NCBI GenBank assembly: GCA_947044365.1
Contig: OX345636.1
Span: forward strand, 35,035,212-35,099,211
DNA: 64,000 nucleotides
DNA from: Petrosia ficiformis
Taxonomy: Eukaryota > Porifera > Demospongiae > Haplosclerida > Petrosiidae
Direction: 5' to 3'
Part shown: positions 11,353 to 60,600 of the stretch, piece after piece
Numbering within the stretch: the stretch's first letter is position 1
Layout of the letters: every line of letters begins with the position of its first letter
The notes under the pieces: generated by a model
Told to the model about the DNA's origin: nothing
What the model saw: only the letters and a program-made list of their open reading frames with translations
The model's database searches: none
Made by a program: the position numbers and the translations under genes

Positions 11353-11439
11353 TCTAGTTAGTGAATAATGCTCTCAATGTTTTAACACAAATTTTATGTT
11401 GAACACTCATTCAGTTTATATGCTTTCCCTCGAAAGTGG

Positions 11440-26908: not shown

Positions 26909-29900
26909 CTAAGAAAAAATACAAAATATAAATTAATGCATGCATGTTGTAAAAATGAAATTTTTTATTAATCCTAATAAATCATAATTCTAAATAGATC
27001 CTCAAAGGAGGTTGCTATCTTTGCAATTAAGCAGACTGTTATAATTTTATAGATAATAAATAGTAATATTTTTAATGATAATTATATTGCAGATAAATAG
27101 TATTGTTTTTGTCACATCCAAAGGGTATGCACATACTACATGTATCACAGGAGACATTTATCATTAATAATTAAGAAATTGTCAATTTTGTAGCTCTTCA
27201 CTATGACTCAAACTTAATTTTAGTACTCTCTTTAGGTTTAACTATCAAGTTCAGCTGTTCCCTAATTTCTAAAAAAAAATAGATGTACCTGAATCTGCTC
27301 AATTGGCTTTTCTTTTTGCTTTAGTTGGAGCTCATATTGTACTTCCTTCTGTTTCAAATCACTTTGTAATTTTTCAATTCGTACTACTGCTGCATTATTC
27401 ACTTCCTGTTGCTCTTTGTTAAGTTTTTCCTCTAATTCCATCCTTTTCCTCTCAAAGTCCTCCTTCCATATTTTTTCGGTTTGCTCTTTGACATTGGCTA
27501 CACGAATTGCAAGTTTGAGATTCTCTTCTTTCTTCTCCTGCAGTTCCCTTGTAATTCTATCAAACTCATTACATTTTCGATCTATTTCTGCTTTTCTAAT
27601 CAGAAGCTTCTCGTCTTTCTTTTTGTTTTCTTCATTAAGTTCTTGTTCTTTGAGCTGAAGGGATTGAATGCACTCATCCTTCTCTTTCAAACTGATTTGG
27701 TGTTTCTGGAGTTGAATGTTTGCAGCTGTTTTCGTCTCTTTTATTCTCTCGTTCAGTTCTCCAATTGTTATATCTTTTAGTTTCATTTCCTCTTGTGCTA
27801 TAGCTAACTCTGTTTCTAATTTTTCAACTGTCTTTTGTTGTTCATCAAACTGAGCTTGAACACGAATGAACTGCTTTTCTACAGCTAGTTTTGATGATGC
27901 AACTTCTCTTTCTGCTTTAGTCCACTGTTGCTGAACCGAAGCCAGTTTCTCTTTTAATTCTAATTTTGATTGTAGGAGTTCTTTCTTTGTGTCACTAAGT
28001 TTGAGACTTACATCATCTTTTTGTTTTGTCAAGTTCTCTACTCTGTTTCGTAGCATGTGATTCTCTTCTTTCAAAACAATTTGCTGAGTCTTGCTGTGAT
28101 CTTGTGCTGTTGATAATTCTGTTTGTAATTGTTCAATTCTCTTTTGTTGCTCATCATATTGATCCTGAAAATGAATAAACTGCTGTTCCATAGCTACATT
28201 TGATTCTTTATCTGCTTTAGTCAACTCTTGTTCAATAGAAACCAGCTTCTCTTTCAATTCCATTTCTTTGGCGTACCAATACTCTTTGTCTTTCTCCAGC
28301 TCTCTTTTTGCTGCTTCAACAGTTTGAATATCAAGCTCAAGCTTAGCAACAAGTTTAGCATGTTTTGTTTTTACTGCTGAAAGCACATTTGATGTATCTT
28401 TCTTTAGGTTCACCATGTTCTCCTTTGTCTGTTGTAATTCTTTTTTCGTACAACTAAGTTCCACACTTGAATCTTCTTTCTGTTTCTTCATGTTGTATAC
28501 TGTGTTTTCTAGAAAAACAAGCTGTTTGCGTAAACCGATACATTGAGCTAACTGAGTATCAAATATACTCTTTTTAGTAGATAAATGAAATTCCAAGCAG
28601 GCATTTCTTTTTTTTAATTTTGTGAGTTGATCTTGTAGGTATGTGTTCCCCACTATTGAAAACACACATTGAGCATGAGAGCTTACAGTGGTATGTACTA
28701 CCTTCTGAAAAAAATTGAAAAAAAAGACAGTATTATTATGCATAGTTACATACACTATACATATACTATAATAGTTAGTGTTGGGCAATATTGAAAATTA
28801 CGTTTTGCGATTATTGCCTAAAGGTGACTTACAATATTGCCACTACTCATTGATACTGTGTATGATAGCAAAAGCAAGCTCAATTTTTAAACAATGACAC
28901 TTCTGATCCTTGTTTTGAGAGCATATGGCTCAAGACTATAATATAGTACTCTTCAACTACATATATTATCACGAATTGCAGTAAGATAATATTTTGCCAT
29001 TTCGATATATTCGATATATCGATTATTGCTCAACCCTAATAGTAGTGAGCAAAATGTTTTGGTGAGTGACTAGAATGTTAACGCACATTTCTAAATTTAG
29101 TTGTCAAACATAATTATTAAGGAAAGTAATTGTTTGCTGGTTAATGTTAGGCTGGGCTTGACAAGAAATGTGACTATCAGACATACATGTACTAGGCAGC
29201 ATTAATTAGTACTTATCAGTGTTTCTTCAAAATTGTAATCAGTACTAATCAGTACTTCTTTTGCACGTGTAGTCAATGATTGCCAGCTCCTTTTATAAGA
29301 GTAGGTGCTTAGTGTAGCTCAAGCCTTGCACATCATGTGTAACAAACTTAAGTTTACAGCAGCTCTATACTTCTTTTCTTTGTTTGTGAGTTGCATTATG
29401 CATTATAGTTACATACTTGTTATATAAACATACTATTTATATTATTATTATTACCCTCGCGGAGTAGCATAGGCGGAAGGGTACGGTAATCATTTTGTCT
29501 GTGTGTCTGTGTGTTAGCAAAAAACATTGACATTTCAAACGGGGTACTGGTAGACTTCGAGGAAAAAGAATAACGTAGGAATTCTTTTAAAACCTTTTGG
29601 TTCTAAAGTTATGACAATACGTGAGAGGTGATTCAATACGTTTTCACACGTTAGAGGCTTTAGAGGTAGACTTGAGAACTTCTTCATTGTTTTTCGAAGG
29701 AAAACTGAGAATAAGATGTAAGATATGTACAAATTACACATTTCTTTCATTGATATTCTTATTTTGTCTTTTAGGATATAAAGTTATAACAGTTTTAATG
29801 CCCATAAATGTTTTCAAATTTATATGTGTAGTCCATGTAACAAATGTTTCATACACAAACTTTATTATATTTTGAAAAAATGATAGTGCTTTGTGTTACT

Positions 29901-32900
29901 TTGCCACATAGGCGAAGGTCCCATCCCGATGGCGCTCGTTATTATATGGATACTGGGGTACTCAGATTATTATTTTACTGTTATTGCTATTTTATTGAAC
30001 ATTCCTGAGTGGGGAGAGTTGGCTTGCCATCAAAGATCTTTAACCCACCATTCCCGGTTCTCAAGACTGAACAGTTCCATTTTTACTTTTCAAAGCCATT
30101 GTGGCTGCTTATTTTCTTAGCCATTGCAGCTGCTTGTTTGCTTGTTGTGTTTGTTAATCATTTCTACGTCTATTGCTGGCATGCAAAGCACATGCATTTT
30201 TATGTAGCTATATCAGTAGCATAGTAGTAGTTGTTGTGATTCTATGCAATAATATAGATTATAGAAAGTATCAAAATTAATATTTATATCTATTGTGTAA
30301 TATCAGACATCCAATATCCCTATTTGCTTGGCAAAAAATAGCACAAGTATTTATTTACCTTGGATACAGCATCTTGGTCAAAAAGTGGTTCAAAATCACC
30401 AACAATCTTTTTATACCAATAATCATGTTTCAAATTAACCTTTGATTGTACCTAAAACAAAAATCGTGTTATCACAATATTGTCATTAAATCACTATACT
30501 TTGTTAACTTATTAACTAACCTCTCCATAATGAATCACAACAGGACCAAACTTTCTCATAGTGTCTGCTGTAATAAATTTACGTTGTGATTTCCTAAGGA
30601 ATGTTCAATAAAATAATAATCTGAGTACCCAAAATTAATTAGTTATAGAGATTCATTATTATTAATGGTTGTTCAGATAGAGGGATGGATGTATGTTATC
30701 ACAGCTAGTAACATTCAAACATGACTTACATTATATCGAATAATAGTTTCTGCCACAGGTTTAAATTTCCTCTCAATTTAGAGGTAATGTTACTGAACTC
30801 CATATCCCACAGACTCTGATACTTCAGCCACTCCTATTATTTATAAAATAAACTTACTAATAAATTGCATATGCATATTTAAAAAGGAACATTTTTATGT
30901 GAATTGTTATATTCTTACAACAAAATGGACATGCTCACGAACACCAAAAGTAACAGAAACAAGATATTATGGAGAAAAAAGGAATCCCCGATTGCTTTGT
31001 GGTGTCCAGTATTTAGTAATCATGGCTGACTATCATGCTGAAACACAACAGCCGATAAAGAATCTTGTAGAACTTTAGAAATATATTTCAGCTAGAACAG
31101 CTATTAGTTCCAGTTTCTATGTAAGTTACAAGCAGCTTTCTTCCTGCTGGTCTGTAGAGCTTGAGTGCGCATTCTATTACACACCACACCCCTTAATTAA
31201 TCTAGGCCCCTGGAATGATGTAATAACACATAGTCACGTATGTGACACAAACATATATAAGATATAAATAAATAAATATTTATAATTATATGTTAAATCT
31301 CGTGAAAAGAATTCATAGGGATGGCCCTGTGGGTCATAAAAATAGCCTATCCCTATAATTGCTTTTGATGGGATGAATCTATGTATATATAATTATGTAT
31401 ACTCCTGTCTATATGTGTCGCATAAAGGAAATTGTGCTATTTGGGGGGCTCAGTCAATTATTGGGTGTAGTATGTAAAACAACTACTGTGTTCTGCACCT
31501 TTGATCAGTGCGACTAATTTGATAACGCTAGGGTTTCAATACGTTACAGTATGAACAATCATTAAACAGTGTGAGCTGTTGAATTGTTCTTTGACTCCCA
31601 AAGTCTTGTCGGGATCCAACAACATATATTAAAACTGTTATAACTTTCAAACCAAAAGTCTTTGGAAAATTCTTTATACATTCATTGTTCCAGTCTATTG
31701 ATAACTAGATGAGAGTTTTAGCATTTTTAGTTTTGCCTATTAGATTTATGATTGATATATAAAGTTTGGAATGTGTTGCTAGGAATATGAAGTGCTCCAA
31801 ATGTCTGTAATTGGTGTCAGGAAAAAGCCCATGAAAATGACTAAAAAAGCTGATAGTTTTTCAGACGGCCCTTTGCCCTAAACTTTGAGTACAGGGGGAA
31901 ATTTAAACAGGGTGTCCCCCCCTTACTGGGAGTTTGAAGGGGGTGCAGCCCCCTCACTGCACACAAAATTTAAAGATTCAGTGACTCCGCCCACTTAGTC
32001 TGGTGAGTAGCTAAGACTTTTCCTTTGGTATAAAACCCAATATCTTGGGTGTAGCTGGTACCAGACCCCACCCACTCAATCTGGTGGATAGCTTAGACTT
32101 TTTCCTTGGTGTAAAACCTGATATCATGGGTGTAGCTCGTGCCAACATGTAATGGGGTCATTTTGTTTGCCTCAGTTGCAGTCAAAAGTTGGAGAGCACT
32201 GCATTTGAATCAGTCCTATAAAGTGCTTGGGGTTGTTCAATTACTGGTAAGCAAGTTGGTAGAAGTACTACTCCATGTCGCAAAAGGAGCTAAGTTTGGG
32301 GTGGAGAAAGTAAACAGAGGCAAACATATATGCAGCAGATTCGCCAGTGTTGGAAACGAGAAGAATGTTGAAAAACAAGCTCAGTCCCCTAAGGGTTAAT
32401 TAAAGTTAAACTATTGTAACCCTTTTTTTATGCATGGCGGGGGTTAATAACTATAATAGGCATTGAGTTTTTGACATGAGAAACTAATGTCAAATTACTA
32501 CAAAACAATATCTGTCGGGACGGGACCCTCGCCTACGTGTCAAAGTAATATTACACATGTGTAAAACAAACAATAATTATTTATAACTTAATACACCAAA
32601 AGATTACAATAATTATGTATTATGTTTATATTATTGCTCATTTGTATGGGTCTGAGTCTTGAAAATACGAAAAGAGTAACTTCAGATTGTTTAATGCATA
32701 CAAAAGTTATATAGCAAGGATGGAGATTCTGAAATAAAACTATGAAGGACTGAGTGGCTGCTATCAATTGAACTCAATTGTATTTTAAATACGAAAAGTA
32801 TATGAAAAATACGTGTATTTTATCTCTATAGGTCTTACATTATAGTCTCCGCTTTATTCCAAAATGAAAGAAAGGTCCTCATGAATCCTGTGAAACACTC

Positions 32901-34374
32901 TACAAAGAGAAAATGCTTACACGTGTGCGAATCACGTGCACAGCACATGAATTGAAATAGGTGGAACTAGAAAGTAACTTAAGAATGCTTGGAGCAATTG
33001 CTTGATGTTTTAGCCAGGACTACCTCAATTGTGTTTGATTTCATGCACCGCTTTGCTAGCGATAGCCATGACACAGTAGCAGTTATGTTTAGATGTGTCT
33101 AGTTGTCCCAAAACGTCTTCTCAAGTCTGGAAACAGTAACCGTGAGTAATATAATATTGTCATAAATTTGTAACCAAATGGTTTTAGCAAAAGCCTGTTA
33201 TTTTAGCTTTGATTCTAACAACAGAGCAAAAAAAACCTCTCTGAAACTAAAGTTAGCTCTTTTCTCCTCAACAGGAAAGTCATCTTAGATTCCTCACATA
33301 TGCACATATTAAATGTGTTATTTAACTATACTCCCCTACCTATTGTGACTGAAACTCCCAATATATTTACCTTCACAAATGAATCAATTTCTTGGAGAAG
33401 ATCTTCAATAGCTCTGTAAGCAGTAACCAAAGGTTGAGAATTTTTATGCATCAATTTACCAAGTAAAGAACGATATGTTGGTTCGGTTTCTTCTCGTTCA
33501 ATCTAAATACAAATAATTAATTATCAAGATTTACTTTTATTGTGTTTCAATTACCTGATATCTGGTGCTCTGAATACGTTGTAATCCAGTAATTTTACTG
33601 ATCCATTTGTGTAGTTCAGTTATTAGATGACATCTTGATAGTTCAAGAGGTGGTTGTAAATACATTACCTGATTAGTGATATGTAGCTCATGATGACTAG
33701 TCTCCATTTGTGGTGTTCCACCTGATTTCAACTGTACTTGTGGACTAGTAATCATTGTTGTGTCAACTATAAAATGATCATCATTAATCTGATCCACTAA
33801 ACAATCTCTCCAAGTATTAATAGCAGTTGATAATCTCTTCATCAAATGAGATTCAACCTGCAAATAATTATAATGAAACAATTATTAATCCTCGCCTTGG
33901 CCTGGATAGGCGGAGCGAAGGGTTACTGTAATCATAGTGTCTGTCTGTCTGTTCCCAAAATTCCAGCGAACCTATCAATATTAACACTTTGAAAATACTG
34001 CCAGCAGACTTAAAATCATGTGAATTCAAAACTAACAACAGCTAAACCTTTCTGTTTTAAAGTTATAACAATTTTTGTAACTCATGGTCGCCATTTAACA
34101 ACTTTCAGAAGATGTTCACTGAAACACAGCTCATCTTGCTTGAAGCCTATCACTGTCTAATCACAGCTTTAAATTAAGTACAATTGAAGTAGTGGCTGCA
34201 AGAACTTCAAGCTAGCTCTAATTTGCTGTCAATTTCTAGCTCCACCCATTTGATTTCATCCATGTAGTTGAAGCCACAAAACTGTTTTCTAATTTCTTGA
34301 TTTTAACACTGCGCTTCTTATACTAGGAATTATGTACTCTTAGTAGGATTTGGAGTGTAAGTTGCAAAACACAG

Positions 34375-34420
<46 letters not shown>

Positions 34421-37400
34421 CGTATAAAAATAATTATTACAGTCAAAATTATATTGTCTGCAGTTATTTTCTTGTCAGTGACTGAATCATTCTTGTTTTC
34501 CAAATCACATTTGTGGCAAGGGTTCAGCACTGCAATTGAATTCATTACTTTATGTAAATATTTTTTTCTTAATTATATATTTTAATTAAATTATCATTGA
34601 ACACAGCAAAAGAAGATGACATGATGTGTTGAATGAAAAGCATAATGCTTTGATAATTGGCTTACTGTACAAATTATTGTTTGAATATTGTTTAACTTAA
34701 CTTTCACTCAAATTATTGCAAACACATCAAATATGCTGAAGAGAAACAACAACCTTACTCTTAATTGCACACTATTTAGTAAGACTGGGATGATGTAATT
34801 GATTAATCAATCAATATTGAAATCTTCCAGATTATAAGTCTGTGATATCGATTATGCTAAATACTTGAAACCAGTTCAAGCATGCAACAGCATGCGAATA
34901 ATGTACAATATGGAAGTAACAGAAAGCCTTCAAATGAGAAGCGTTTTCTGCATTAATTGACTCAACTGGCCTAATTACTTCCATTGATTTTAATTGATTA
35001 TCAATCAATTTAAAGTTAGTGATAATAAACTTCAGAAACTCAGCTAGCCATGTTTCATAGAAAACTAATCAAATTTGGTATACATTTAGAGCTATCAATT
35101 ATAGATACTTTGTTTCCTGTACAAAATGGCCAAAAGTGAGCATTTGCGCAAAATTGTTCGGTATTTTCTGTACGGATAATTACATAACAACTAAAATTAC
35201 ATGTATAATACATACCACTTCATTTAGTTCGGTAACCCATCTTGAGAGGTTTGTGTACAATCTGAGGTTTAAATAATCAACTAGATTTTGTACATCATCT
35301 AGTATTTTTGTGAATACACTGTAATCATATTCGCAAGATTCCAGTTTGTTTACAAGGTACCCAATTTGTTCAGTATAGTGAATAGCTGCATCAACCTGAA
35401 TCAATGAAATAACAGAATGTACAGGAACAAAAAAAGAAAGTCATTACCTTTTCCTGGAAATTCAAAATACATTCAGAGAATTTGAGTGTAAACTGTTGTA
35501 ATCTGTATCCCTCCCATGTCAAGTTAATAAACTGTAATAAAGATCATGATAACATACACACACACACATAATATACATGTAGGTAAACACACCCACCTCT
35601 TTAATAAATTCTTGTACATCTATTTTTAATCCAGCTACAAGAGGCGCAACAAATGAACTATCAGTAACCTACAGTGTACAAAAATATAATAAGAATACAC
35701 AAATATCCATGATTGAATTACCTTTTGACATGTCAATTCGTACGTTTTAATACTTTCCTTCAGACATACTGCATAAGGATATAGTTGATTAGCTTGTGTA
35801 GCAAGTGAAGAAATACTGAATGGGATTCTGAAACCCATACCACGAAGATAACGTGTCTGACAGGATAAATTTAGTAATAAATTAATAGCTGACAGCATTT
35901 TTACATTATCTCACCTCTTTATATAACCATAAGTTATCTGTATTGAAATTGACAGCAAGTCTGGGTTGAGGTCCACTTCTTGTTATGATACTAAATATCT
36001 TTCCTTGAACGACACAAACTTCTGAATCAACCTACATAACAGAATCATAAGTTGTTATGTATTATGGTGGGGCTATATTGACATTTACCTCATACTATAA
36101 TTGCGTTATGTAAATGTTGTGATTACTGCAATTATTGCATATGATTATGTATCCTTAATGTGAGGTAATAGTTATTTCAAATAAGCACAAACTGAAATTA
36201 CACACTTAGTTGCCATTGTTCTTTCTTCGCCTCAATAGTGCTCATGAAAGCTAATTTATATATTAAATGCAGTAAAATCCCAATAATATTTTGTTTATAA
36301 TATTGCGATATCCTACACAATGTGACGATATGTTTAGTTGTGACATAAATATATATAAATGTGATGTGGTATTACAATACCCTCTTCTTCCATTCTTCAA
36401 ACAGTTGTGAAGGATTCAATTTTTGTCTGAAGAGCTCTCCATCAGATTTCAGCTGGTGCCCTTCTATATGGGTACCCCAGTCAACACCTAGAACAGCTTC
36501 AACTCGTTCCAGACATAAGTCTAGCTGATGTTCAATCTAAGTCAAAGTGGTAAGAGAGAGTATCTAAAGGAACATGAAGGAATTTACTTGTCTAGCCCAC
36601 ATTATTGATGAAGATATTGGTGGAATATCCAACATGGTACACATTGCATTTGTAGGAGTTTTGTCATATGGCATCTGTTGATAATAGATAAAACGTAATA
36701 ATTATATCATATAGTACTCCTTGGGACGGAATTAAATTCCAGAGTTAAATTGTTACTATTTACCCATGATTTCAGTAATATATTACCGCTAAATTTTAGT
36801 ACTGAGTTCAAAGGTGAGTATAAAGAACTAATATTTTTCTCCAAGGGGATAGTGAATTTTCATCTGGTGCATGTTTGAAGTTACAAGGGGTATCATAGTT
36901 GTGGAGGATAAGTAAGGAAGGTATTTCTTAACACTGATACCCTTTAAATCTGGTAGGCAAATAAAGATAGTATCTTGTTTGATAAAAAAAAAAAAACATG
37001 GAAATGAAGTTTTATCTGGTACTAACCTGACCGAGAAGAAATTCATGACGAATCATTCAACAAAGATGGAACACAGTGTTCAACTTCAGCGATTATTACT
37101 TATTTCTGTTATAATGGTACTGGATGCTTATTTTAGAAAAGGTTTAAATAATCTTGTAATAATTATAAGAGCAGCCATTTTTTCATCTGTTCCCTACACA
37201 GAGAGTACCACTGTACTCTCTAATAACTGCTAATGGACACTATTGTCATGCTATAATTATATATATAATACCTCGAATTTCTTTTGTAGGCTTTCAATAT
37301 CCTCTTTCACTCTCTGTATCAATTGTGGCTTATACTCTGTAATAACTCCTCTTATATGAGGTCTCACAAATAGAGGATTGTAACAAGAGAAAATTCTGAA

Positions 37401-40400
37401 CATCTCCTTGGCATTCCTAGCTGATCCTAACTGATTTCTTAAATGACCTGCAATACCAGCCTCAACCCAATCAATTCTCTCTTCATACCTACATATCAAA
37501 TACATTAATGATAACTACAAATCTACACTACAGACAGACAGAGGTGCATGTATACCTTTTAATAGCTGCCTCCCATGCAGCTGATCCATCATTAGACACA
37601 TCCAGACAATCTACGAACTTCACATTATCATATGCCAAATGAACTTCCTTTACAGATAATAACTTGTCTTTATCCAGTAACTGTTCTTCAACCATCTCCT
37701 GTCATGTGATTAAAAGTAATATCACGTAATTTAGGAAATCATAGTAACTGACGATGGTAGTGTGTGTGATAGTACGAGACTTCTTCGTTTGGTGAGATAG
37801 TTTCAGAACACGATTCATTACCATTTGCAATTGTTCATGTTGTAATCTGAATCTGACAATAAATGAATAGGAATTAGAATTTATTTCTTAATTATGATTT
37901 GAAACACTTACGACTTCATTTGTGAGAGTCTATTCCATAACTTCTTATGATTGAACTTGATATGGAATTTATGAGTTTCTCCTTTCTTTTTTGATAGCTC
38001 TCGTAGCTGAGAGGCAAACCTATCAAACTCTTCATCCCAAGTGTGAAACACTTTGTTTGAAGCTCCAAAGACTACCTCGAATTCTGTAAATGTGATGCTC
38101 ATTAACTGGTATGTACTCAAAACTTTAACAAGCTGAGTAAGGACATCATGAGATATGGCTTCTACTAAACCTATAGCTCTATCGGTTGGGTATAATGTGC
38201 AATGAATCTTCTTTAGGTGAGAAAATATATTCAAAATAGCTAGGGTAATTGCCTCCAAGGAATTTGATGTAAGTAACTCTTTAATAGGGAAGTCCTTCAT
38301 TAACACCCTGTAATCTAGGACTTTATCTTGCATGTCCTTGAGGCCTGTATTGGAATCAAAACTAATCGTTGATCCAAATCTCTTTCCTGCCTTCAATACT
38401 TCGAGAGTGAGGAGTATTTCTGGACTGTCCCTCTTTGCTCTAAGCTGGTAAAGAGCACTTTCCATACTACCCCAAAAACTGATCTCTTGTAAAGTAGTAC
38501 CAGAGTACACATCTCTCTCCATTGTAGTGACCTGGAGAATACAAACTGATGTAATTACAAGAACTGAAAAAAATGAATTTCTAAATACTTGTACATATTA
38601 TTATATAATTATACTGTTGATGAGTAAGATACACTTACTTTACGAATCTCTGTGGTCCAGTTTATGACTTGTTTCTGTAAAGCATTTAGAAATGTAGTAT
38701 CAGAAATGTTGTTTCCTATGTCTTCAATTGTTGGCTTTCGGTCTTCTCTTGATGCTAATGCTACTGCATCTTGAATTATTGGGTGTATTGGCAAGCTAAT
38801 CTCTGGTATAGGTATGTTCTGTTGTAAATGAAGAAGATTAACAGCTAGTTCATTAATATGTTTTTGCACAGTGGATGCTAACTGGTCTCCTTCACTGAAA
38901 AAAAGGGATATTAACAATGACAAAGGAATGTGAATAGTTATAACAGCCTCAACACATATTACATAAAGTAACAAATTATACATTTTATGCAAGGAGTCTG
39001 TAACTACTGGAATAAACCGGACTGCTGCATGGACTGACCATTCTCAAAACACAGTAGAACATACTTTAAAAAGAAAAGCAACCTATATAGTACTAAACAT
39101 AATGAATAAATGCACTCATAGCGCAGAACCCTCGTCACAAGAGTGATTGGGAAACAAGAATGATTACTGATAAGATAATAATTGCAGACAATACTCGACT
39201 GTAATAATAAGTATTATACTGAGATTATACTATATATTATGTGTGTTACAACGTATACTCCAAATCCTTCTAAGAATACATAACTCCTAGTATAAGAAGC
39301 GTAGTGCTAAAATCAAGTAAAAAACAGTTTCTGTGGGACGTGAATGAAATGAAATAGTTGGAGTCAAAAACTAACAAAAGCTTAGAGTCAGCTGGATGTT
39401 GTAGTAGCCACTATCTCCATTGTTCTTGATGTCAATCTGCAATTCGACAGTGATAACCTTCAAACAAGATGAATTGTGTTTCATGTACTCTTTCACTACC
39501 AACACCTGGGCTCAGCTCTGCCTACACTGGAAAGGGTTAATTATTTTACCGCTAAAGGTGAAAAGTTAAATGTCAATGTCATTATCTGATGCATATATCA
39601 AGGCCAAATTAAAGAGCTGAAGAATTGAAATTGTTTAATGTTCACAAATACAGTAGATATATTTGAGCAAGCAATAGTACTATTAGTGTCATTTTTCAAG
39701 AGGATGGTGTTAATGAATGAATGATCCTATATATAAAAGCACCTAAACAGTACTCAACAAATGTTTTGGAACTGTAGATTATTGTTGTCTTGTATGGCTG
39801 ACATTCACTGCACCCTTATTCATCCTTAAGGTGGCTCAGCGCACAGTCAATCAGTGGGCATGGTGCATAAAAGAATGAAGCACCTTTGGTGTGTGGCCTC
39901 GCCACTTTAGCTTAAGGATAGGTTGCAATTGCAACAATTAAATAAATGAGATGCAAGAGAGAAAGTAACAAGCTTAAATTTGAATTTGTTGTTTATATAA
40001 ATTTGAAAGTTGGTTGATAAAGGTTTTTGTGGCTAGACTGATTTCTGATAAATATAAAAACACATGGAAGATGACTAAGAATGATTCTCCATCAGCTATA
40101 CTGCTTTGTACTAGTATAATAACTATATTACTTACAGTCAAATTACATAATATACTCTTCCAACAAATATTCATTACCTCATTCATTACTGTGACCAAAA
40201 TATCTATGCCACAACTGTCAGTTACTAAAGATAATTATCCTATAATGAATTGTACATTGTTACAACTACAATGAGCAAAAACATTGAACTTACAGTTCAA
40301 ATATATGTAATTTGAAAGTCAAACAAAAGTTCAATAATAGCAGAAAGGAAGGTATTGCTCTAAACTGACCTCCACGTTTGATCTCACGTGATCACACTGG

Positions 40401-42221: not shown

Positions 42222-42260
42222 AATACAAAAGGGGAGGTGTACGGAAACTCCCACGGATAT
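42222..42260. promoter_or_regulatory. 39-bp spacer between two divergent start codons (candidate bidirectional promoter/5' leader)
   Basis: The minus-arm start codon occupies 42219-42221 and the plus-arm start codon 42261-42263, so only 39 bp separate them. The spacer contains GGGAG (42232-42236) and CTCCC (42248-42252), an inverted repeat centred within a base or two of the symmetry axis. No TATA box is visible. Each transcript must either have a very short leader or start inside the other gene's first exon. Regulatory function is inferred from position only. Confidence 0.5.
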
Positions 42261-46856: not shown

Positions 46857-46887
<31 letters not shown>

Positions 46888-49800
46888 CATTTTCCAGACA
46901 AATCATTTTTTTTGTTTGTTGAACTATCACAATGATTCTATCACAATTCCAATCGCATTCTTTGTAAAATTCTGGTCTACAAGTATCGAGATGATATGTT
47001 CAGATGCAATGAAAGAAGACAGTCTCAATGATAGCAAAAATCTGATCTCAAGTTGGACGCCATTTGTATAAGTGTATTCATTAATTTAGCAACGTGGAAT
47101 TAATTGCTCATGCGCATTTGTGTCCTCAGAACATGAAAACTGTTTACTGAAACTGCTTGCTACGTTGGAATCAGAAGAATAGTAATAAAGTTTGTGAGCA
47201 AATTCATTCTTAAAATGATGAGTATAATATTAAAACCATGGTATACTGATAAAATAATATTATATACTATGATAAGCACTGGAATCCCGAATGGTTGACT
47301 CAGAGACTAGCACTACTTCTTGTTGCAAAGCTGTAAGTGAAATATAAAATAGGCAGTCTCATCTGTAAGTGAAAAAGAATGATAATCAATTCATAAATAA
47401 TGGATATAATTATACAAAAGTCTGACCTTCAATGAAGATCAAGCCTCATAGCAATCTACATAAAATATTCACAAACCATCTACCATTCAGAAAAATACAA
47501 TGGAAACAAAAATCATAAAAACATTTTCAATAAAAATGAAGGAAGATGTATGGACGTCAAAATCCAAAAAGCATGCGAACAAGGTTGGGAGGTTAACGTA
47601 GGACCTAAAATTAAACAAGCCACTTCCATATAACCCTACATAAGTACAGCTCTTTGTAGTTTGGTTTATAGTGGTGTAAGTACTTATGTAGGGTTATATG
47701 GAAGTGGTTTGTTTAATTTTAGGTCCTATGTTAACCTCCCAACCTTGTTTGCATGCTTTTTGGGTTTTGACGTCCCTACATCTTCCTTCATTTTTATTGA
47801 AAATGTTTTTATGATTCTTTGAATTTATTTGCTCACAAATGTTATTGCTATGCTTATGAATCCAATGCAACAATCACTTTCTCCTTTTCAGCTTCCATGC
47901 TCGAGTATACAAATGCGGATGCGTAATTAATTCCACATATTACAAGTACAAAGTTTGTGGAATTCGTCAACAAATACTTTTGTTCTCCACAGATAATTGA
48001 ATGAGAATTTACAATAAACCTCACAAGCATAATATTTATTATCAACAGCATTGAAGCTCCTGTAACCAAATAAGGGTTAAAATAACCAGTTCATTTTGAC
48101 AAGAAAAAGTAAAATGGTTTAGTTACTGTACTAATTAAAGTTTTATTGCAATGATTTAGTTCTAATACAAATTGAAGTTGTTAACAAAATATTTGTTTTA
48201 GTTCTAGTACCAATTCCAGTTCTTGACAAAATATTTTTATGGCCTGTTGGGCCATCCCTATGATTGGTTTTCCACGGGTTCGATGTATGTTTATATATAA
48301 TTATATATAATTATAATCATGTTTTTTTCACTTACGTGAGTATGCGTTGTATATGTAGTTAAGGAAGTATGTCATTCCGGGGGGCTCAGTCAATTAATGG
48401 ACGTGGCGCGTAAAAGAACACACATTCAAGCTCTACAGACAAGCAGAAAGAAGCTGTATAGCTTACGTAGAAACTGGAACTAATAGCTAGCTATTCTACC
48501 TGAAATATAATCCTAAAGTTCTACAAAGTCTTTTAAAAGGTAGATAATCAAATAATAACTATAGTAGGCTGTTGTGTTTCAGGCATGATAAAGTTAGCCA
48601 TGATTACTGAATGATGGACACCACAAAGCAGTCATAGGGATACTTATTTTCTCTATATATCTTGTTTTTTCTAGTACCAATTCCAGTTCTTAACAAAATA
48701 TTTTTAAATTCTAGTACCAATTCTAGCTCTTGGTGCTAGAACTAAAATAAAAGGGCTAAAATTATATTAGTTCTAGTACCCAAGAACTAGAACAACACTA
48801 ATGGCTGGCCATGTTTTTTCCGTGCCATCCCTGCATAGAGAGTACTACCGTACTCTCTGATATATGTGTGTGTGTATTTTATTATGATCATTATTATAGG
48901 GTATTAACTTGACGTGGGAGAGATACAGATTAGAATTGTTTGTGCATAAATTCTCAGAATGTAGTTTGAATTTCCAGGAAAAGGTAAATGACTTTTTGTT
49001 GCTGTACTTTATGTTCCTGTACGTTCTCTTATTTCTTTGATTCAGGTTGATGCAGCTATTCACCATACTGAACAAATTGGGTACCTTGTAAACCAACTTG
49101 AATCTTGTGAATATGATCACAGTGTATTCAAACAAATACTAGACGATATACAAAATCTAGTCGGTAATTTAAACCTTAGATCTTACACTAACCTCTCAAG
49201 ATGGGTTGCCGAACTAAATCAAGTGGTATGTATCATATTTGTATTTCTTATAATTATTAATTAAAAATTATAGTGGTGCACCTATACCGATATTAGCATT
49301 GGTATTGATGTAATAATTGCAAGATCAATAAGTATCGTTACTGGTTATTAAAAATTGAAGTTACTGATACTAGTTGTTCTAATTAAAGCACACCTCCTCC
49401 CACTTTAAACTCTGGCATGCAAGTACAAGTCAGTGTCATTTCAAGCTGAGATGCAGAAGACAGGTGAGAGAGCTCTCAGAATACCAAAGAGAGAAAGAAG
49501 AACATTATAGTGATAAGACAAAAGCTAACTTGCAAAGCATCTAACACTAGTAACCTCTGTAAACATTTGCAAGGACATCCAGACAGATATAATGAGTTTG
49601 TTGAGAAGGAAAGTAACAAAGAACAACTTCAATCTAACAAGAAAAAGGATAATCACAAGTAGGTGATGCTTGAAGCTCTGGCAGAAAGGCAAAAGCCTTA
49701 CTCATCCACGAGCGAAGACCATCACATATTTTATTGCTTCCGGAAAAAAGCTGAAATGCTGCTCTTTTTGAAGAAGAACCTACAATTCATCCATATTCTT

Positions 49801-52800
49801 TTCTGCAATGCTATTACATTTAATACTGCAAACCTGATACTACATATAATTATTTGTAATGAAATGTTTCTACCATATCTGTATCAGCTAATTAACGTTG
49901 ATATCAATAATCGATATCGGTTTCAATATTGTAGTATTGGTGCACCACTTGACTTCCTGTAAGATAATAACTAAATAGTGTCCTAGTAGTGTTTATTTCT
50001 TCTTGGCATATTTGTTGCATATGTAATTGTTTCAAATGCTCGCATATAACGACACTGCATGTGAACAACTGGACAAGACCTTTTCAGGGTTTGCTGAGCA
50101 CAAGTGTGCGAACATATTTGGTATTATTCATGATAAGTGCGGTCGCTTTTGCCTATAATAGAATTAAATGTGTCTAAACCAGATTATATATGTAGCTTAT
50201 ATTCTTCATGAAATAACGGCTTTTTTTCTTCTTTCTGAGTAAGGCAATGAGGAAGAGGAATCATTCAATTTGTCAACCACTAAATGTTGTTTCTGTCCTG
50301 TACAAATAGCTAAATATCAAGTATTAATTTAATGATAAACAATTTGATTTATTGAGAAATATTGTCTACTTCACAGTTAAAATCAAATACAGTTTGTAAG
50401 CTGATTATAAACTTTAGACAACATATACAAGTTTGCCTATTAATGCAGTTACTTACAGAGGCCATCTAGAAACATTTTCTTCAAAATTTTCCATAACTGC
50501 TGTAGTGTGCAGCACAATATGAGCACACTCTATCGGAATGTTGTAACTTTGGAACTTTTGTCCACCTTCTAGTTAGTTATCCAGTAAAGAAAATGTCTCT
50601 GAGTCATCCTTGCTATAGTTATTAGAAGATCAAAAGTATTGACACTTTTGGACAATTGTGTTTCCTTTGGATAAAAATTTTCTCCAGGCTGTAAAATGTT
50701 CGATGTGATATAAATTCACCATTAGAGCATCTTTAGACTTTGTGTTTTTGCTTATTACTCTTATTTAATCGATTTCAGTAACAATTTTTGAAGTTTTATT
50801 ACTTATTGTATCTTATTAATTATTCATAATACTCTCAAATTTCACCTTAAAGAACAACAAAGTAGGCTTGCCTTGAAGTCAGAGCAGGAGCTTCTTCCCA
50901 AAAAATCATGATACCTCACCAAACAATACCCTATATTTCATGGCAAAGCATCTATGCAGATCTCTAAAAAACAGGGGAATGATGCCTCCCATTCAGAACA
51001 TTACCCCTGTTTTTAACTGACCTGGTTAGGAAGATCACCTACTTCAAGAGTGCTGCACTTTATAATTATATTAATAGTTAAAAGCTAAAGAGACATGATG
51101 AGTTGAGATACCTAAACCAGACAACTAAAAAACCCAACACTACCTCAGGTGCATACAGTGGTGACAACAACCAGTTTTATACCAGTGGAAAAGGAGATAG
51201 ATACCAGAGACACCACTAATGTAAGAGTGTCTGTAGACCAAAGAAGCCAGGAGAAACTAAGAGTCAATAGCACTACTCAAGAGCCCTATAGAAATTATTT
51301 GTCAAACCATATGCAATCACAAAATACCCGGAGGTCTTTTACAAAAAAGGAGTAGTTTGCATAGTCGTAATGAAATTCTCTGTAATACTAATGTATTTCA
51401 GAAGGTTCGGATTGTTTTAACAAAAACTCCTGGGTCATCATATGGCTGTGCAATAGAGGTGCTTGATTTGCTGAAATTTCAGAAGAAGCTCGAAACTTTG
51501 TCTTTACGGTGGCACAAATCTGACAAGACACATGACTCCTTGTTCAGCAAATGAATCGGTTGGACAGTAAAAGGGATGCAGATCCCATTTCAGGCAATGT
51601 TCATGTAAATTGGATTTCTTAGTAATTTTCTTACAGATCCCTCAATTATTAAATCATATATGCTTCTCAGTCACAATGGAGTATTCTTCAATAAAATTGC
51701 TAAATAGTTGTGTGTAATGATATTAAATTAATTAATATATTAGTCAGAGAATAAAATAGCCACATCCAAAATAAATTTATTATTATTGTAATTAACTGCA
51801 GGTTGAATCTCATTTGATGAAGAGATTATCAACTGCTATTAATACATGGAGAGATTGTTTAGTGGATCAGAGTAATGATGATCATTTCATAGTTGACACA
51901 ACAATGGATACTAGTCCACAAGTACAGTTGAAATCAGGTGGAACACCACAAATGGAGACTAGTCATCATGAGCTACATATCACTAATCAGGCAATGTGTT
52001 TACAACCACCTCTAGAACTATCAAGATGTCATCTAATAACTGAACTACACAAATGGATCAGTAAAGTTACTGGATTACAACGTATTCAGAGCACCAGATA
52101 TCAGGTAATTGAAACATAATAAAAGTAAATCTTGATAATTAATTATTTGTATTTAGATTGAACGAGAAGAAACCGAACCAACATATCGTTCTTTACTTGG
52201 TAAACTAATGCATAAAAATTCTCAACCTTTGGTTGCTGCTTACAGAGCTATTGAAAATCTTCTCCAAGAAATTGAATCATTTGTGAAGGTAAATATATTG
52301 GGAGTTTCAGTCACAATAGGTAGGGGAGTATAGTTAAATAACACATTTAATATGTGCATATGTGAGGAATCTAAGATGACTTTCCTGTTGAAGAGAAAAG
52401 AGCTAACTTTAGTTTCAGAGAGGTTTTTTTTGCTCTGTTGTTAGAAACAAAGCTAAAATAACAGGCTTTTGCTAAAACCATTTGGTTACAAATTTATGAC
52501 AATATATATTACTCACGGTTACTGTTTCCAGACTTGAGAAGATGTTTTGGGACAACTAGACACATCTAAACATAACTGCTACTGTATCATGGCTATTGCT
52601 AGCAAAGCGGTGCATGAAATCAAACACAATTGAGGTAGTCCTGGCTAAAACATCAAGCAATTGCTCCAAGCATTCTTAAGTTACTTTCTAGTTCCACCTA
52701 TTTCAATTCATGTGCTGTGCATGTGATTCGCACACGTGTAAGCATTTTCTCTTTGTAGAGTGTTTCACAGGATTCATGAGGACCTTTCTTTCATTTTGGA

Positions 52801-54621
52801 ATAAAGCGGAGACTATAATGTAAGACATATAGAGATAAAATACACGTATTTTTCATATACTTTTCGTATTTAAAATACAATTGAGTTCAATTGATAGCAG
52901 CCACTCAGTCCTTCATAGTTTTATTTCAGAATCTCCATCCTTGCTTTATAACTTTTGTATGCATTAAACAATCTGAAGTTAATCTTTTCGTATTTTCAAG
53001 ACTCAGACCCATACAAATGAGCAATAATATAAACATAATACATAATTATTGTAATCTTTTGGTGTATTAAGTTATAAATAATTATTGTTTGTTTTACACA
53101 TGTGTAATATTACTTTGACACGTAGGCGAGGGTCCCGTCCCGACAGATATCATTGTTTTGTGGTAATTAGACATTAGTTTCTCATGTCAAAAACTCAATG
53201 CCTATTATAGTTATTAACCCCCGCCATGCATAAAAAAAGGGTTACAATAGTTTAACTTTAATTAACCCTTAGGGGACTGAGCTTGTTTTTCAACATTCTT
53301 CTCGTTTCCAACACTGGCGAATCTGCTGCATATATGTTTGCCTCTGTTTACTTTCTCCACCCCAAACTTAGCTCCTTTTTCGACATGGAGTGGTACTTCT
53401 ACCAACTTGCTTACCAGTAATTGAACAACCCCAAGCAATTTGTAGGACTGATTCAAATGCAGTGCTCTCCAACTTTTGACTGCAACTGAGGCAAACAAAA
53501 TGACCCCATTACATGTTGGCACGAGCTACACCCATGATATCAGGTTTTACACCAAGGAAAAAGTCTAAGCTATCCACCAGATTGAGTGGGTGGGGTCTGG
53601 TACCAGCTACACCCAAGATATTGGGTTTTATACCAAAGGAAAAGTCTTAGCTACCCACCAGACTAAGTGGGCGGAGTCACTGAATCTTTAAAGTTTGCGT
53701 GCAGTGAGGGGCTGCACCCCCTTCAAACTCCCAGTAAGGGGGGGACACCCTGTTTAAATTTCCCCCTGTACTCAAAGTTTAGGGTAAAGGGCCGGCTGAA
53801 AAACCATCAGCTTAAATAAATATATTGAGAGATTCAGTCGCAATAAATAGACAAGTAGATAATAATCACATTATTTTTCTTAATAATTTGTGTATGTGGT
53901 CCATAATTACTTTCCTGTTAAAGAGAAAATCTGGTTTAGCTACATGTAGCTTCAGATTCTGAAAGTTGTGTTGGGTCACACTTTTTTTAATGCTTGGGTG
54001 AACGTAGTTACATGTAGAATGAATTATGACTATTTTGTAAATAATAGGGTTGGCTAAAGTACCAGAGCCTATGGGATATGGAGCTCAGTAATATTACCTC
54101 TAAACTTGGAGAAGATTTAAACCTGTGGCAGAAACTATTATTGGATATAATGTAAGTCATGTTTGAATGTTGCTAGCTGTGATAACATACATCCATCTCT
54201 CTATCTGAACAATCAATTGATGATAATGAATATTTATAACTAATTAAGTTTGCGTACTCAAATTGTTATTGTTTATTTTACTGCTATTGCTATTTTATTG
54301 TACATTCTCTAGGAACTCGCAACGTACATTTGTTACAGCAGACACTATGAGACGTTTTGGACCTGTTGAGATTCATTATGGAGAAGTTAGTTAATAACCT
54401 AATAAAGTATAGTGATGTAATGACAGTAGAGGGATAACAACATTCAACCCTGTTGTCTGATTAATTATGTCCATAACTTTGATTAATTTATGATTTGGCC
54501 TTTTATCTCATCTTTGTTGTACATGTAGGTACAATCAGAGATTAATTTGAAACATGATTATTGGTATGGAAAGATTGTTGGTCAGTTTGAACTACTTGTT
54601 GACCAAGAGACTGTATCCAAG
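42261..54621 (+). CDS. DYNC1H1-like: Plus-arm dynein tail exons 1-18
   Basis: Exons are 42261-42763, 43209-43464, 43572-44197, 44257-44356, 44411-44553, 44621-44837, 45102-45188, 45240-45395, 45761-45886, 45944-46078, 46132-46203, 48900-48983, 49046-49225, 51802-52104, 52157-52288, 54048-54151, 54313-54385 and 54529-54621. Landmark phrases are [20 protein letters not shown] (exon 1), [19 protein letters not shown] (exon 2), [20 protein letters not shown] (exon 3), [20 protein letters not shown] (exon 6), [17 protein letters not shown] (exon 10) and [20 protein letters not shown] (exon 18). Several introns are very short (54-68 bp). Introns 11, 13 and 15 are enlarged by transposons. The exon 4 donor is inferred from frame and from agreement with the other arm. 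Confidence 0.9.
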
Positions 54622-57600
54622 GTAATATACACACATTATATGTTTTGTCTATAGTACTTTCTTTTACTATTGCAAGGCTATTTAAGCATCCCTGTTTTAC
54701 ATGACAATTGCTCTTTTGATTTTTGTGGTTTGTTACTTACTTATACAGAAATTATTTGTGAAGAAAGTTTTGTATGTATCAGTCATGGAAAATGTATCTT
54801 GTTATCTGTGTTTGTGATAACCGCATATGGCACATCATTGGCCTAAAGAGTTTCTTATTTGGCACTGCACAGTTCTCTCTTAGAGCCAGTGGCGCCGTTA
54901 ATTATGATTGTATTGTCACTAATAGCAACCCTTAGAGGACTGATGTCACATACAATGTATATATGTGACATTTGACCCCTATGTGGTTTGGAGTGGGTTC
55001 CAAGCATTACGAAGCACTCCGAATGCTTGTAATTGGTATCAGGGACAAACCCATGAAAATGGCTAAAGAAGTTGATGGTTTTTCAGCCCCCCTTTGGCCT
55101 AAATAATGAGTATGAGGGAATTTTAAAGGGGGGTGTCCCCCTGTTAATGGGGGTTCGAAGGGGTGTTCCCTTGTTAATAGGTTCGAAGCGAGCTGTGCCA
55201 TCTAGCCGCCTACGCAATTTGCGGTTTGCCGTTTGCACTAATGCACTCTGGTGGGTACCTAAGGCATTTCCCTTGCTGGAAAACCTGAAATTGTGGGTGT
55301 AGCTGGGCGCCAACATGCAGTGGGGTCATTTGTTTGCCCCAGTTGCAGTCAAAAGAGAGAGAGCATTGCATTTGATTTAATCCTACAAAGCACTTGGGGA
55401 GTTTCGAGTCCCGGTAAGCAAGTTGGTAGAAGTAGTAATCCATGTTGGAAAAGGAACCAGGTTTGGGGTAAAGAAAATTAAGTGGCCAAAATATTTGCAA
55501 TAGAGACAGACGCCAGTGTTGGAAATCGGAAGAATTTTGAAAAACAAGCTCAGTCCTCTAAGGGTTAAATCATTGGCTCAAGATGTATTCCCAATGGTAC
55601 ACACACTAACCATTGTTAAGCCAATTTGACCCATGGTTCAAAATGTATCAAACACTCTGCTTGTTATCATTTGCTATATAGTCATCATTCGAAGGTTCGT
55701 TCATGTGTGTCTTCAACCCAACTTACTCTTTTAATAGATATTTGTTTCCCAACTTTAAGGATTGTATGTAACTTTTGAAGTGACAATAAAAAGTCTGGAA
55801 GTCACCTTTTTATCACAAATCATGTACCACACCCATGCAGTAGTGTTTTTATCATTGAAATGATGTCATGACAGTCATGCACTCACTATAAATACATGTA
55901 AATAAATATACTTTAGCTTTGAAGCAATCATAGTGATTGTTCTTCAGTCAATACAAATTTGTGTTTATTAAATCATCTGCGTACTGCTTCTCTTTGTTGT
56001 CAAAAGTGAGCACTGATGACCAACAAATAATCACCTTGTTAAATGATCACTTTGTAAGAAACCAACTTACCTTCATGATATCTGGTACTTCCTGAGTACA
56101 AAATGGGCATAGTCTGATAAAAATCACAACAGGTTTCTCAGGACATACTTACTAACAGCAAATACCACATCAAGTACATTTATCAACTCTTGTCCCAGGC
56201 TTAGTATGCTCATATGTAGTACTTGTATATACATTGTATGTATATATATATGTAGTTGTGTAAGTGTTTTCATACTGTATAATATATATTTTCTTTTTGT
56301 CAATTTCTTTCAGAAGGTAGTACATACCACTGTAATGTCTCATCCTCAATGTACGTTTTCAATGGTGGAAAACACATACCTCCTACAAGATCAACTCACA
56401 AAATTGAAAGAAAGAAATGCTAGCTTGGAATTTAATTTATCCGCTAAGAAGAGTATTTTTGATACTCAGTTAGCTCAGTGTATCAGTTTACGCAAACAGA
56501 TTGTTTTTCTAGAAAACACAGTAAACAACATGAAGAAACAGAAAGAAGATTCAAGTGTGGAACTTAGTTGTACGAAAAAAGAATTACAACAGACGAAGGA
56601 GAACATGGTGAACCAAAAGAAAGATGCGTGGAATGTGCTTTCAGCAGTAAAAACAAAACATGCTAAACTTGTTGCTAAGCTTGAGCTTGATATTCAAACT
56701 GTTGAAGCAGCAAAAAGAGAGCTGGAGAAAGACAAAGAGTATTGGTGCTCTAAAGAAATGGAATTAAAAGAGAAACTGGCTTCTATTCAACGAGAATTGA
56801 CTAAAGCAGATAAAACAGCCACAACGTCAAATGTAGCTATGGAACAGCAGTTTATTCATTTTCAGGATCAATATGATGAGCAACAAAAGAGAATTGAACA
56901 ATTAGAAACAGAATTATCAACAGCACAAGATCACAGCGAGACTCAGCAAATTGTTTTGAAAGAAAAGAATTACATGCTACAAAACAGAGTAGAGAACTTG
57001 ACGAAACAAAAGGATGATGTAAGTCTCGAACTTAGTGCCACAAAGAAAGAACTCCTACATGTCAAGGAGGACATGGAAAAACAAAAGAAAGATGCACTTT
57101 ATGTAGTTAAGACAGAGAATGCTAAACTCGTTGCTAAACTTGAGCTTGATGTTCAAACTGCTGAAGCAGCTAAAAGAGAGCTACAGAAAGACAAAGAGCA
57201 TTTAGCAAAATCTCAATTCTCCAAAGAAATGGAATTAATTGAGAAAATTGCTTCTGTTCAACAAGAGTGGTCTATAGCAGAAAAAGAAGTGACAGCATCA
57301 AAAATAGCTTTAGAAAAACAGTTTATTCATGTTCAGGCTCAATACAATGAACAAGAAAAGAGAGTTGAAAAGTTACAAACAGAGGTAGCTGCATTACGAG
57401 AGGAAATGGAACTGAGAAATAGAACCATTGGAGAATTGAATGAGAGAATAAAAGACATGACAACAGCTGCAAACATTCAACTTGAGGAAAATCAAGTGAG
57501 TATGAAGGAGAAGGAAGAGTGTATTCAATCCCTTCAGCTCAGAAAACAAGAACTTAATGAAGAAAACAATAGGAAAGACAGGGAGCATCTGATTAGAAAA

Positions 57601-60600
57601 GCAGAATTTGACCAACTGAAGAATGTGTTCGATAGAATTACAAAGGAACTACAGGAGAAAGAAGCAGAGAATCTCAAACTAGCCATTGATACAGTTGATA
57701 TCAAAGAGCAAACTGAAAAAATATGGAAGGAGGACTTTGAGAGAAAAAAGACGGAATTCGAGGAAAAACTTAATCAAAATCAACATGAAGTGAATAATGC
57801 AGCAGTAGTACGAATTGAAGAATTACAAAGTGATTTGAAACAGAAGGAAGAAATAATTGCACAATATGAGCTGCAACTAAAGCAAAAAGAGGGGACAATT
57901 GAACAGATTCAGGTACATCTATTCTTTTCAGAAAGCTCAAGTGAATAGTTAAACAGATTCCCAAAAGGAAGTTTGAATCATAGTGAAGAGCCACAATTTC
58001 ATTAATGAATTTTCATGATACATGATATGCTTTGCCATTAATCCACCTCATTTTGAGGTGCTAATGCATTTAGAATTATGATTAATTTTATTACATAATA
58101 ATATTATACTTCATTATGCATGTATTATATATTTTGTATATTTTCCCAGTATTACCAAAATGAGATGGAAAGGTTGGCTACTCTGAATAAACAGCTAGAA
58201 GTTCACAGATCTCAATTGCAAGAGGAAATTGCTGCAGTACAGAAAGGTCTCTATCATGTCAAGGTTGATCTAATTGTATTGTTTATATAGTTCACTAATT
58301 TATACAACTAGATGATATAATGTCGTAGCATGCCTTACTCTAGTACCATATTAGAACAGTTTCTCTTAAGAATCAGTGAACAGGGTAATGGTTACATACT
58401 CAGTGCCATCTGTTGTAGACTTCTTCTGATTATCTTCACCATATCACAATATACATATTTATAGTACGTTTGCAATAGTAACATGTCAGTTAAAGCATGG
58501 TACTGTATAGTCATAGTAACATGCATTAACTGACAGTGATAAAGCACGTTACTATATACTGTTAAATTTTGTTTAACACAAACAAATTCAATTGATAATG
58601 AAATTGTTAGTAAACATCAGTATTAATTAGTTTCAAATCTATAAAATACTGCATTTAGTAGAGATTTTGGACAACAATGAAAGCTGACAGTTAAGTAATT
58701 TGCCTATGTATAGACCTAGAGGTAATCTTTCACTGCTAGGTATACAGATAGAGGTAATTTGTCACTGGTAGAGTCTAAGTATTGAGGTAATTCATCTAGG
58801 TATGTACAGATATAGAGGTAATCTTTCACTGCTATGTATACAGCTACTCAGCTAAAGGTAATTTTTTCACTAAACTGTCACCCTAATGCATTGTAGAGTT
58901 TAGGAAAACAACCTTACTCTTTCCCTTAAACTCCTTTCAATTCCAGCAATTATACTACGAAGAGACTAGGCCTGGGCGATAACTTCAATATTTCGATATA
59001 TCATGATAATATTTTTCTACGGCGATAACAATATGTCAAATTATTTATCAAAAACATCTGCGCATGCGCAAACGTTGAGCACGTTGTACAAAGTTGCAAA
59101 AAATGGCCAGTACTGATTTTGATCTTTTAGCTTTGGAAGGTACAAAAAGTAATGTATGGCGTTACTTTGGCTTTCCAGCCAGGGAAGGTGAATATATTGA
59201 GCCAGTCAAGAAACTGCGAAAGTATGTTTACTGTCAAATATGCACTGTAAAAAATAATAGGTTATTTCAACCTTCAATTGGTTACAGGAGTTTCATTGCA
59301 ATCAGATTTCACTTCATGCTGATTTATATATTTTCTGTTAGGTAATATTTACAAGTCATGCACAGTTCATAAGTGACTGAGTGACTGATATAGCAGCTTC
59401 CTTATACGGCAAGGTAAATATGATCCTGCCCTCCTTATAGCAGCCAGTTTAGCTAGGCACTTATGACGTACACTTTGTATGTGCAACTTCCAGTCAAGAT
59501 ATACTTATTTATTCGAACACCGAGATATTTCACACATTCTTGCTTCACTAACACATCACCACCAATCCTGACTTCAACACTCTGTGCCTTCCACTGATTT
59601 CTCCTTCTATGAAGAACCATTAGCTGAGTCTTGGCTACATTCATCTTCAGTCTGTTTGCATTAATCTATGTTACTACCCTCCTGAGGTCTCCTTCGAGCT
59701 TGGTACTAACACCGCAAGGATCTTTGTCTGAGGTGTAGATAGCTGAATCATCAGCATAGAGATTGACTGTGCACTGTTCTACAGTGTCAGGTAAGTCATT
59801 TACAAATATTGTAAATAACAGAGGGCCTAGAATTGATCCCTGAGGAACCCCTTTCACAATATCTTTCCAAACAGACAAGACTCCATCCATCACCACCCTT
59901 TGTTTTCTGCCACTCAGATAATCGGTGAACCATTTCAACTCTGATCCTCTGACTCCATAAGCATCTAACTTTTTTAGAAGTAAGGGATGATCTATTATGT
60001 CAAAAGCCTTGCTAAGGTCAATCATAACTGTTCCAACAATCTCTCCTTGATCAAGAGCAATCTTCCAGTCATCAACAGTTCTATGTAACACATCTTGGGT
60101 GCACCTATTAGGTCTAAACCCAATTGAGCATCATTCAGCAGCGAATTTGTTTCCAGATAATGATATAACTGATGGTGAACAAGTGACTCGAATATTTTGG
60201 CTAGGACCGGAATTACCGAAACTGGCCAATAGTTGGATACATCATCTTTGTCCCCTGACTGTGGGACTGGTGTAATAGGACCACTAGCTTTCCGCTCATC
60301 CAGTGATGAGAACATTTTAAGCATCAGCTCCTCATCAATTAAAAAGAACTTGAACATGTTTGTTGGTGATACAGTGAGTAACTGATAACTAATGGTAGTG
60401 GAGAATGAAGAGGGAAGATTGCTGAAATGATTAATAAATGTGTTTACAATGTCCTCATCCCTAGTTATTATCTTTTTGCCTTCAAATCTTAGAGAGGATA
60501 TTCGCTTAGACTTGCTTTGTCCAAGTATAGAGTTCAGATGGCTCCAGGTTGCTCTTGGTTGATGATTAATATCTTTACATATTGCTTCATTGTAGTCCTT

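Follow-up and report, generated by a model that had tools for sequence, protein, structure and literature searches.

Two head-to-head sponge genes in which a motorless dynein-1 tail reads in frame into a long coiled coil

In Agaricomycetes the dynein heavy chain is split between two genes. The Dhc1 tail is cut at residue (aa) 1180, shortly after the SIEG motif, dhc2 encodes the motor, the two products may co-localise, and a return to the unsplit state has not been observed (PMC4540427). In the Chlamydomonas mutants oda4-s7 and oda2-t the outer-arm heavy chains lack the motor and the arms still assemble via the N-terminal part (PMC12338079), and human DNHD1, described as a 'ghost' dynein-related gene, has been discussed as perhaps retained because a shortened product could lethally poison heavy-chain dimerisation (PMC8754002). 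Here we describe a 64,000-nucleotide stretch of the genome of the sponge Petrosia ficiformis (C1:35035212-35099211 of a 191-Mb, 29-contig genome; hereafter the window) in which the tail of a cytoplasmic dynein-1 heavy chain, lacking the motor, reads in frame into a coiled coil in each of two genes. This architecture, first proposed in an initial annotation of the window, is well supported by GT..AG exon borders, the absence of stops and phase-0 junctions in both genes.

The window contains a large inverted repeat with one gene in each arm. The genes stand head to head and are both read outward from a 39-bp centre (42222..42260, no strand), with start codons at 42221 for the minus-arm gene and 42261 for the plus-arm gene. 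Given the 39 bp between them, each 5' leader must either be shorter than 39 bp or run antisense through the partner's first coding exon, and any shared promoter would lie inside 42222-42260 or inside the partner's first exon. Each gene opens with 18 tail exons with GT..AG borders and no stop, amounting to 1130 codons in the plus arm and 1122 codons in the minus arm. On the plus strand the tail occupies 42261..54621 (exons 1-6 at 42261-42763, 43209-43464, 43572-44197, 44257-44356, 44411-44553 and 44621-44837; exons 7-12 at 45102-45188, 45240-45395, 45761-45886, 45944-46078, 46132-46203 and 48900-48983; exons 13-18 at 49046-49225, 51802-52104, 52157-52288, 54048-54151, 54313-54385 and 54529-54621). 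On the minus strand it occupies 30359..42221 (exons 1-6 at 42221-41728, 38894-38639, 38531-37912, 37852-37753, 37698-37556 and 37488-37272; exons 7-12 at 36674-36588, 36536-36381, 36031-35915, 35856-35722, 35668-35597 and 35531-35448; exons 13-18 at 35395-35216, 33857-33555, 33502-33371, 30833-30730, 30593-30521 and 30451-30359). Compared arm with arm, all exon indels are multiples of three apart from paired, compensating one-base gaps in the exon-16 alignment. The plus-arm protein, which served as the search query, carries a single Pfam domain, DHC_N1 (PF08385, E 1.3e-103), and its residues 9-1122 align with residues 19-1134 of human DYNC1H1. The tail is of the dynein-1 type, with DYNC1H1 the best match at 1042 bits and 29.6 for the sole axonemal-type match among the matches listed.

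The tail ends in both arms at a phase-0 donor, after 54621 and after 30359, as the initial annotation had it. Beyond intron 18 (54622..56313 on the plus strand, 1692 bp; 28705..30358 on the minus strand, 1654 bp; phase 0 in each) the coil exon opens at a phase-0 acceptor, at 56314 or 28704, and continues for 533 or 472 codons respectively, again as first described. To rank the sites, a splice model was trained on other genes only, with 26 donors and 25 acceptors drawn from the dynein gene of contig C4 introduced below and from A1, an unfused paralog of the coil. By this model the exon-18 donor is second of 134 GTs in the plus arm and first of 88 in the minus arm, and the exon-19 acceptor is the top AG in both (1/94 and 1/92). 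From splice-site rank, frame and gene family we infer that exon 18 is spliced to exon 19.

The coil is longer than was at first appreciated. Its ends had been placed at 27289 (minus arm) and 57912 (plus arm), and it runs on through exons 20-27 to gene ends at about 19.0 kb in the minus arm and about 66.2 kb, past the window edge, in the plus arm. In the plus arm exon 19 (56314..57912, no stops) is followed by exon 20 (58150..58263, 95.6% identical to the other arm), exon 21 (63715..63822) and exons 22-27, which lie beyond the window at extended coordinates 64142-66201. Each of plus-arm exons 20-27 is a multiple of three in phase 0 with AG before and GT after, exon 27 being read to the stop, and the coil totals 774 letters including the stop, of which 34% are charged, four are prolines and four are glycines. 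In the minus arm the open exon 19 (27289..28704) is followed by exon 20 (26795..26908), exon 21 (24328..24435), exon 22 (23949..24002), exon 24 (21297..21368), exon 25 (19748..19801), exon 26 (19211..19345) and exon 27 (19011..19088), which reads into a stop; the counterpart of the 10-codon exon 23 has no GT donor. The predicted structure of exon 19 has a 13-residue non-helical start and then three long helices (mean predicted local distance difference test, pLDDT, 72; predicted template modelling score, pTM, 0.34), a prediction that supports helix and gives no fold. Two stretches of plus-arm exon 19 (56314-57912) match overlapping parts of A1, and the exon seems to carry an internal duplication relative to that unfused paralog.

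No motor follows the coil. Searches by tblastn with three heavy chains (P0001, P0108 and P0007) returned no match to linker, AAA or stalk in the window, in the 18.8 kb downstream or in the 20 kb upstream, and none of the 83 scored genome matches to AAA1 (PF12774) lies within 2 Mb of the window on C1. The early claim that linker, Walker A/B and stalk are missing after the coil is borne out. A separate, motor-bearing DYNC1H1 does exist, on contig C4 from 113.5 to about 134.2 kb, and carries tail and motor in one run. Its tail, at C4:113501-118670, is the only other dynein-1 tail in the genome, all 44 scored tail matches falling either in this gene or in the two arms. A PF12774 match stands at C4:121908-123528, and tblastn matches to two long heavy chains extend over linker, AAA modules and stalk in the direction of the C-terminus, reaching about C4:134.2 kb. 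All 18 tail exons of the arms are found in the C4 gene at the same intron places by an exon finder that required equal phase, 13 of them at equal length, and exon 18 is six codons shorter in the arms. At the DNA level, similarity between the arms and the C4 gene covers exons 1-18 and no later dynein exon. A split-dynein interpretation, in which the tail would be one half of a motor, was rejected since the C4 gene holds tail and motor together, a motor-only dynein-1 gene not having been searched for as such.

The initial annotation knew of no described gene with this architecture. That statement stands for the fusion itself, in that literature searches, with most subscription journals outside their coverage, turned up no natural dynein-1 that lacks its motor and is joined to a second gene. 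It does not extend to the tail alone, a tail-only heavy-chain gene being known in Agaricomycetes (PMC4540427). A protein search with exons 1-20, in which scoring was limited to proteins between 0.55 and 1.75 times as long as the query and to the 7993 candidates with the most shared words, placed no relative of the fusion among the 120 of 148 matches listed, the best having 51% identity over 72% of the query. Many basidiomycete proteins of 1130-1250 aa with only PF08385 are among the matches listed. Database matches to the coil were 'ena' entries only (8/8 and 15/15).

Our preferred model, which we hold with slightly more confidence than doubt, is that these genes encode a motorless tail with a long rod that likely binds dynactin and dynein's subunits, acting as an immobile scaffold or a competitor. 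Each gene would yield one spliced tail-coil product, dimerising through the retained N-terminal domain, and the tail would take up intermediate chains and light intermediate chains if their sites lie, as assumed, inside the retained part. The assembly would then be recruited to dynactin without movement, the coil extending the tail as a rod that may serve, where the motor would be, as a spacer or a tether, and such a motor-free assembly would occupy dynein's partners. In the human dynein tail, dimerisation is mediated by the first 200 residues, bundles 4-5 hold the intermediate chain and bundles 6-7 the light intermediate chain (PMC5473941). We take both of these sites to fall within the retained tail. 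Dynactin p150 has two short matches above the family cut-off in the genome (PF12455), which suggests that dynactin is present.

Several observations weigh against this model. The fusion product is a prediction from gene structure. At 616 sites alike in two outgroups, P0001 and the tick, 49 are changed in both arms only and 11 in the C4 gene only, which implies that the fused tails evolve faster than the C4 gene. Constraint per exon had been expected to track that of motor-bearing dynein, but per-exon identity to the C4 gene correlates neither with conservation in P0001 (Spearman -0.008, p 0.97) nor with that in the tick (Spearman 0.087, p 0.73). Exon 1, where the larger part of the dimerisation region lies, ranks with the less conserved exons, having 71% identity to the C4 gene in the plus arm and 67% in the minus arm. 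For the coil, no Pfam match was obtained at E 0.001 in fused exons 19-20 and those of paralog A1 were all below the cut-off; the same scans of these sequences showed no known domain of coiled-coil dynein adaptors such as BICD and HOOK, CC1-box and Spindly-type motifs not having been searched.

A bolder form of the model is offered tentatively, at somewhat less than even confidence. The locus may represent a natural motor-free dynein-1 in an animal lineage, whereby two diverged tail-rod proteins assemble dynein's partners and dock on dynactin unmoving, as a heritable dominant-negative or a tether, tuning dynein dose or anchoring cargo. If true, truncation of a dynein-1 heavy chain, presumed likely to be toxic, can give rise to a regulated cellular component. 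Two kept, truncated and fused tails beside a motor-bearing gene provide a natural test of the poison-dimerisation idea (PMC8754002). The locus also supplies a ready-made motorless tail with which to study the action of an isolated tail on dynactin, and it illustrates exon replacement with subsequent duplication as a palindrome.

The strongest rival to the scaffold model is a one-headed heterodimer, in which the fusion pairs with the motor-bearing heavy chain via the shared dimerisation domain and motility is altered. Retention of the N-terminal region and the presence of a motor-bearing partner in the same genome both speak for such pairing, but the divergence of exon 1 to the identities given above would favour self-pairing, and we regard the heterodimer as possible though unlikely.

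A less probable alternative treats each arm as two adjacent transcription units, of which the first is a shortened tail gene that stops within intron 18 and the second a coil gene that starts independently. The plus-arm coil exon does have an ATG at codon 8 and a frame open for 67 codons upstream of the acceptor, but this ATG is absent from the minus arm, where the first in-frame ATG within the exon is codon 72. The exon-18 donor and exon-19 acceptor, moreover, are among the best sites in both arms. Between the arms, introns 18 align significantly only over the last 70 bp before the acceptor, and part of the plus-arm intron (54959-55568) matches sequence recurring in the neighbouring stretch of C1. 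Since the arms are unrelated there except for those 70 bp, no conserved first exon, able to start the coil alone, was seen when introns 18 were compared. The first exon that belongs to the coil family is also absent from the window, from the 18.8 kb beyond it and from the 20 kb before it. Together, the unshared intron and the missing family exon make transcription of the coil only from its own promoter unlikely.

That the two genes are decaying duplicates without function appears very improbable, although the ratio of nonsynonymous to synonymous substitution rates (dN/dS) of about 0.6 between the tail arms, the faster change of these tails relative to the C4 gene and the lack of a donor at the minus-arm exon 23 counterpart would fit decay. 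The tails hold no stop and no net frame-breaking indel. When the 245 observed tail differences were scattered randomly, a mean of 10.9 stops arose and none of 2000 runs stayed open; for the coil about 8 stops were expected under random scatter and none is seen, with no run of 2000 free of stops. Between the arms dN/dS is 0.595 in the tail (bootstrap 0.454-0.792) and 0.457 in coil exons 19-20 (0.328-0.645), while each arm against the C4 tail gives 0.176 and 0.183; in each comparison 0 of 1000 bootstraps reached 1. Both coil-arm types are present and open in other assemblies. In a tree of 13 rows the plus arm groups with P0129 and P0130 (100/98) and the minus arm with P0131-P0134 (98/96, one fork within this clade being unresolved), and the two arms probably occur together in another genome, that of P0130 and P0134, which are one of each type. 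By these measures both copies are under purifying, though relaxed, selection.

Relaxation is uneven along the tail, and judged by substitutions at conserved sites, defined as those at which the C4 gene and P0001 agree, constraint fell in the two dynein exons adjoining the coil while the stretch before them is better kept. In the plus arm 22 of 47 conserved sites are changed in exons 17-18 versus 65 of 559 in exons 2-16 (p 1.9e-8), and in the minus arm 22 of 47 versus 73 of 559 (p 1.2e-7). This split was picked after the per-exon table, and a coarser one, exons 15-18 versus 1-14, gives p 7e-5 for the plus arm and 1.5e-4 for the minus arm. Lower constraint in exons 17-18 is the expected outcome of losing the link to the motor.

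An assembly artefact, by hairpin or haplotype join, is scarcely credible, for although a palindrome with a 39-bp centre is the typical shape of such an artefact, the aligned arm blocks differ by 2-17% and carry different insertions, the arm homology, which runs past the coil to a kinase open reading frame (ORF), stops on the right at extended coordinate 71669 and on the left 1350 bp outside the window and is absent from the next 11 kb and 18.6 kb, and other assemblies hold both coil types, one of each (P0130 and P0134) probably in one genome. Identity between the arms is patchy, reaching 97.8% over 2 kb that include intron 15 (51785-53813 with 33874-31847) and 83-95% in the other long blocks of tail and coil, which makes gene conversion between the arms likely.

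The coil exon has four more copies on C1 with the dynein tail absent nearby, two of them upstream of the window, at distances of about 76 and 103 kb, and two near 23.6 Mb. The unfused coil gene is itself tandemly duplicated, with copies at C1:23578146 and C1:23606979, about 29 kb apart. In three of the four paralogs the phase-0 coil acceptor is preceded by an exon 1 (MATGS..NPY..), its length a multiple of three and its end followed by GT; for the fourth, no such exon was found in the 14 kb upstream. Since the tail exons fit the introns and phases of the C4 gene and the paralogs' own phase-0 exon 1 is missing at the locus, its history looks like a DNA-level exon replacement with later palindromic duplication. 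A DNA copy of dynein exons 1-18, introns included, would have replaced exon 1 of one coil gene, and the fused gene would then have been duplicated as a palindrome. A GM130/golgin origin of the coil, suggested by a likeness, was discarded after the coil, paralog A1 and A1 exon 1 gave no tblastn match at E 0.1 to the genome's GM130-like locus, placed at C4:4.035 Mb by PF15070.

Downstream of the minus arm lies a protein kinase ORF (99-1022, minus strand, PF00069), and another, 80% alike, lies downstream of the plus arm from extended coordinate 66733 onward on the plus strand. A kinase ORF with stops and frame changes is also found downstream of paralog A1. The kinase was considered as a C-terminal domain of the fusion and rejected, given that the plus-arm kinase has its own ATG, in the minus arm some 18 kb separate kinase and last coil exon, and inspection by eye showed no acceptor kept between the plus arm and A1; it is treated as a probably separate gene. 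Elsewhere in the window are an open frame of 1228 aa in which some stretches look membrane-like by eye and for which no Pfam match exceeds the cut-off (7687-11373, minus strand), a DDE_1-superfamily transposase ORF bearing a PHD finger at its C-terminus (12228-14402, plus strand), and reverse-transcriptase-like ORFs recognised by eye at 2349-5080 and 59666-61796, which we take to be of the non-LTR (non-long-terminal-repeat) type.

Among known systems, the tail constructs of PDB entries 6f1u (1186 aa) and 6f38 (1455 aa) span nearly the same heavy-chain stretch as the arms. Both are laboratory constructs, presumably recombinant, unlike the natural fusion described here. Motorless heavy chains are shared also with Chlamydomonas oda4-s7 and oda2-t, but those are axonemal and laboratory mutants. 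DNHD1, compared by description, resembles the arms as a retained relative of dynein heavy chains with no known role; here, in contrast, truncated versions exist and their frames are open. The C4 DYNC1H1 is homologous to the arms throughout the tail, with introns at the same places, whereas the fusion lacks linker, AAA ring and stalk. Agaricomycete Dhc1 likewise encodes a dynein-1 tail without a motor and is cut at nearly the same point, the cut here falling in the intron after an exon that ends near residue 1195 of P0001, by eye about a dozen residues before the Dhc1 cut. Dhc1, however, is half of a working motor, whereas in this sponge an unsplit motor-bearing gene is present and the motorless tail continues into a coiled coil.

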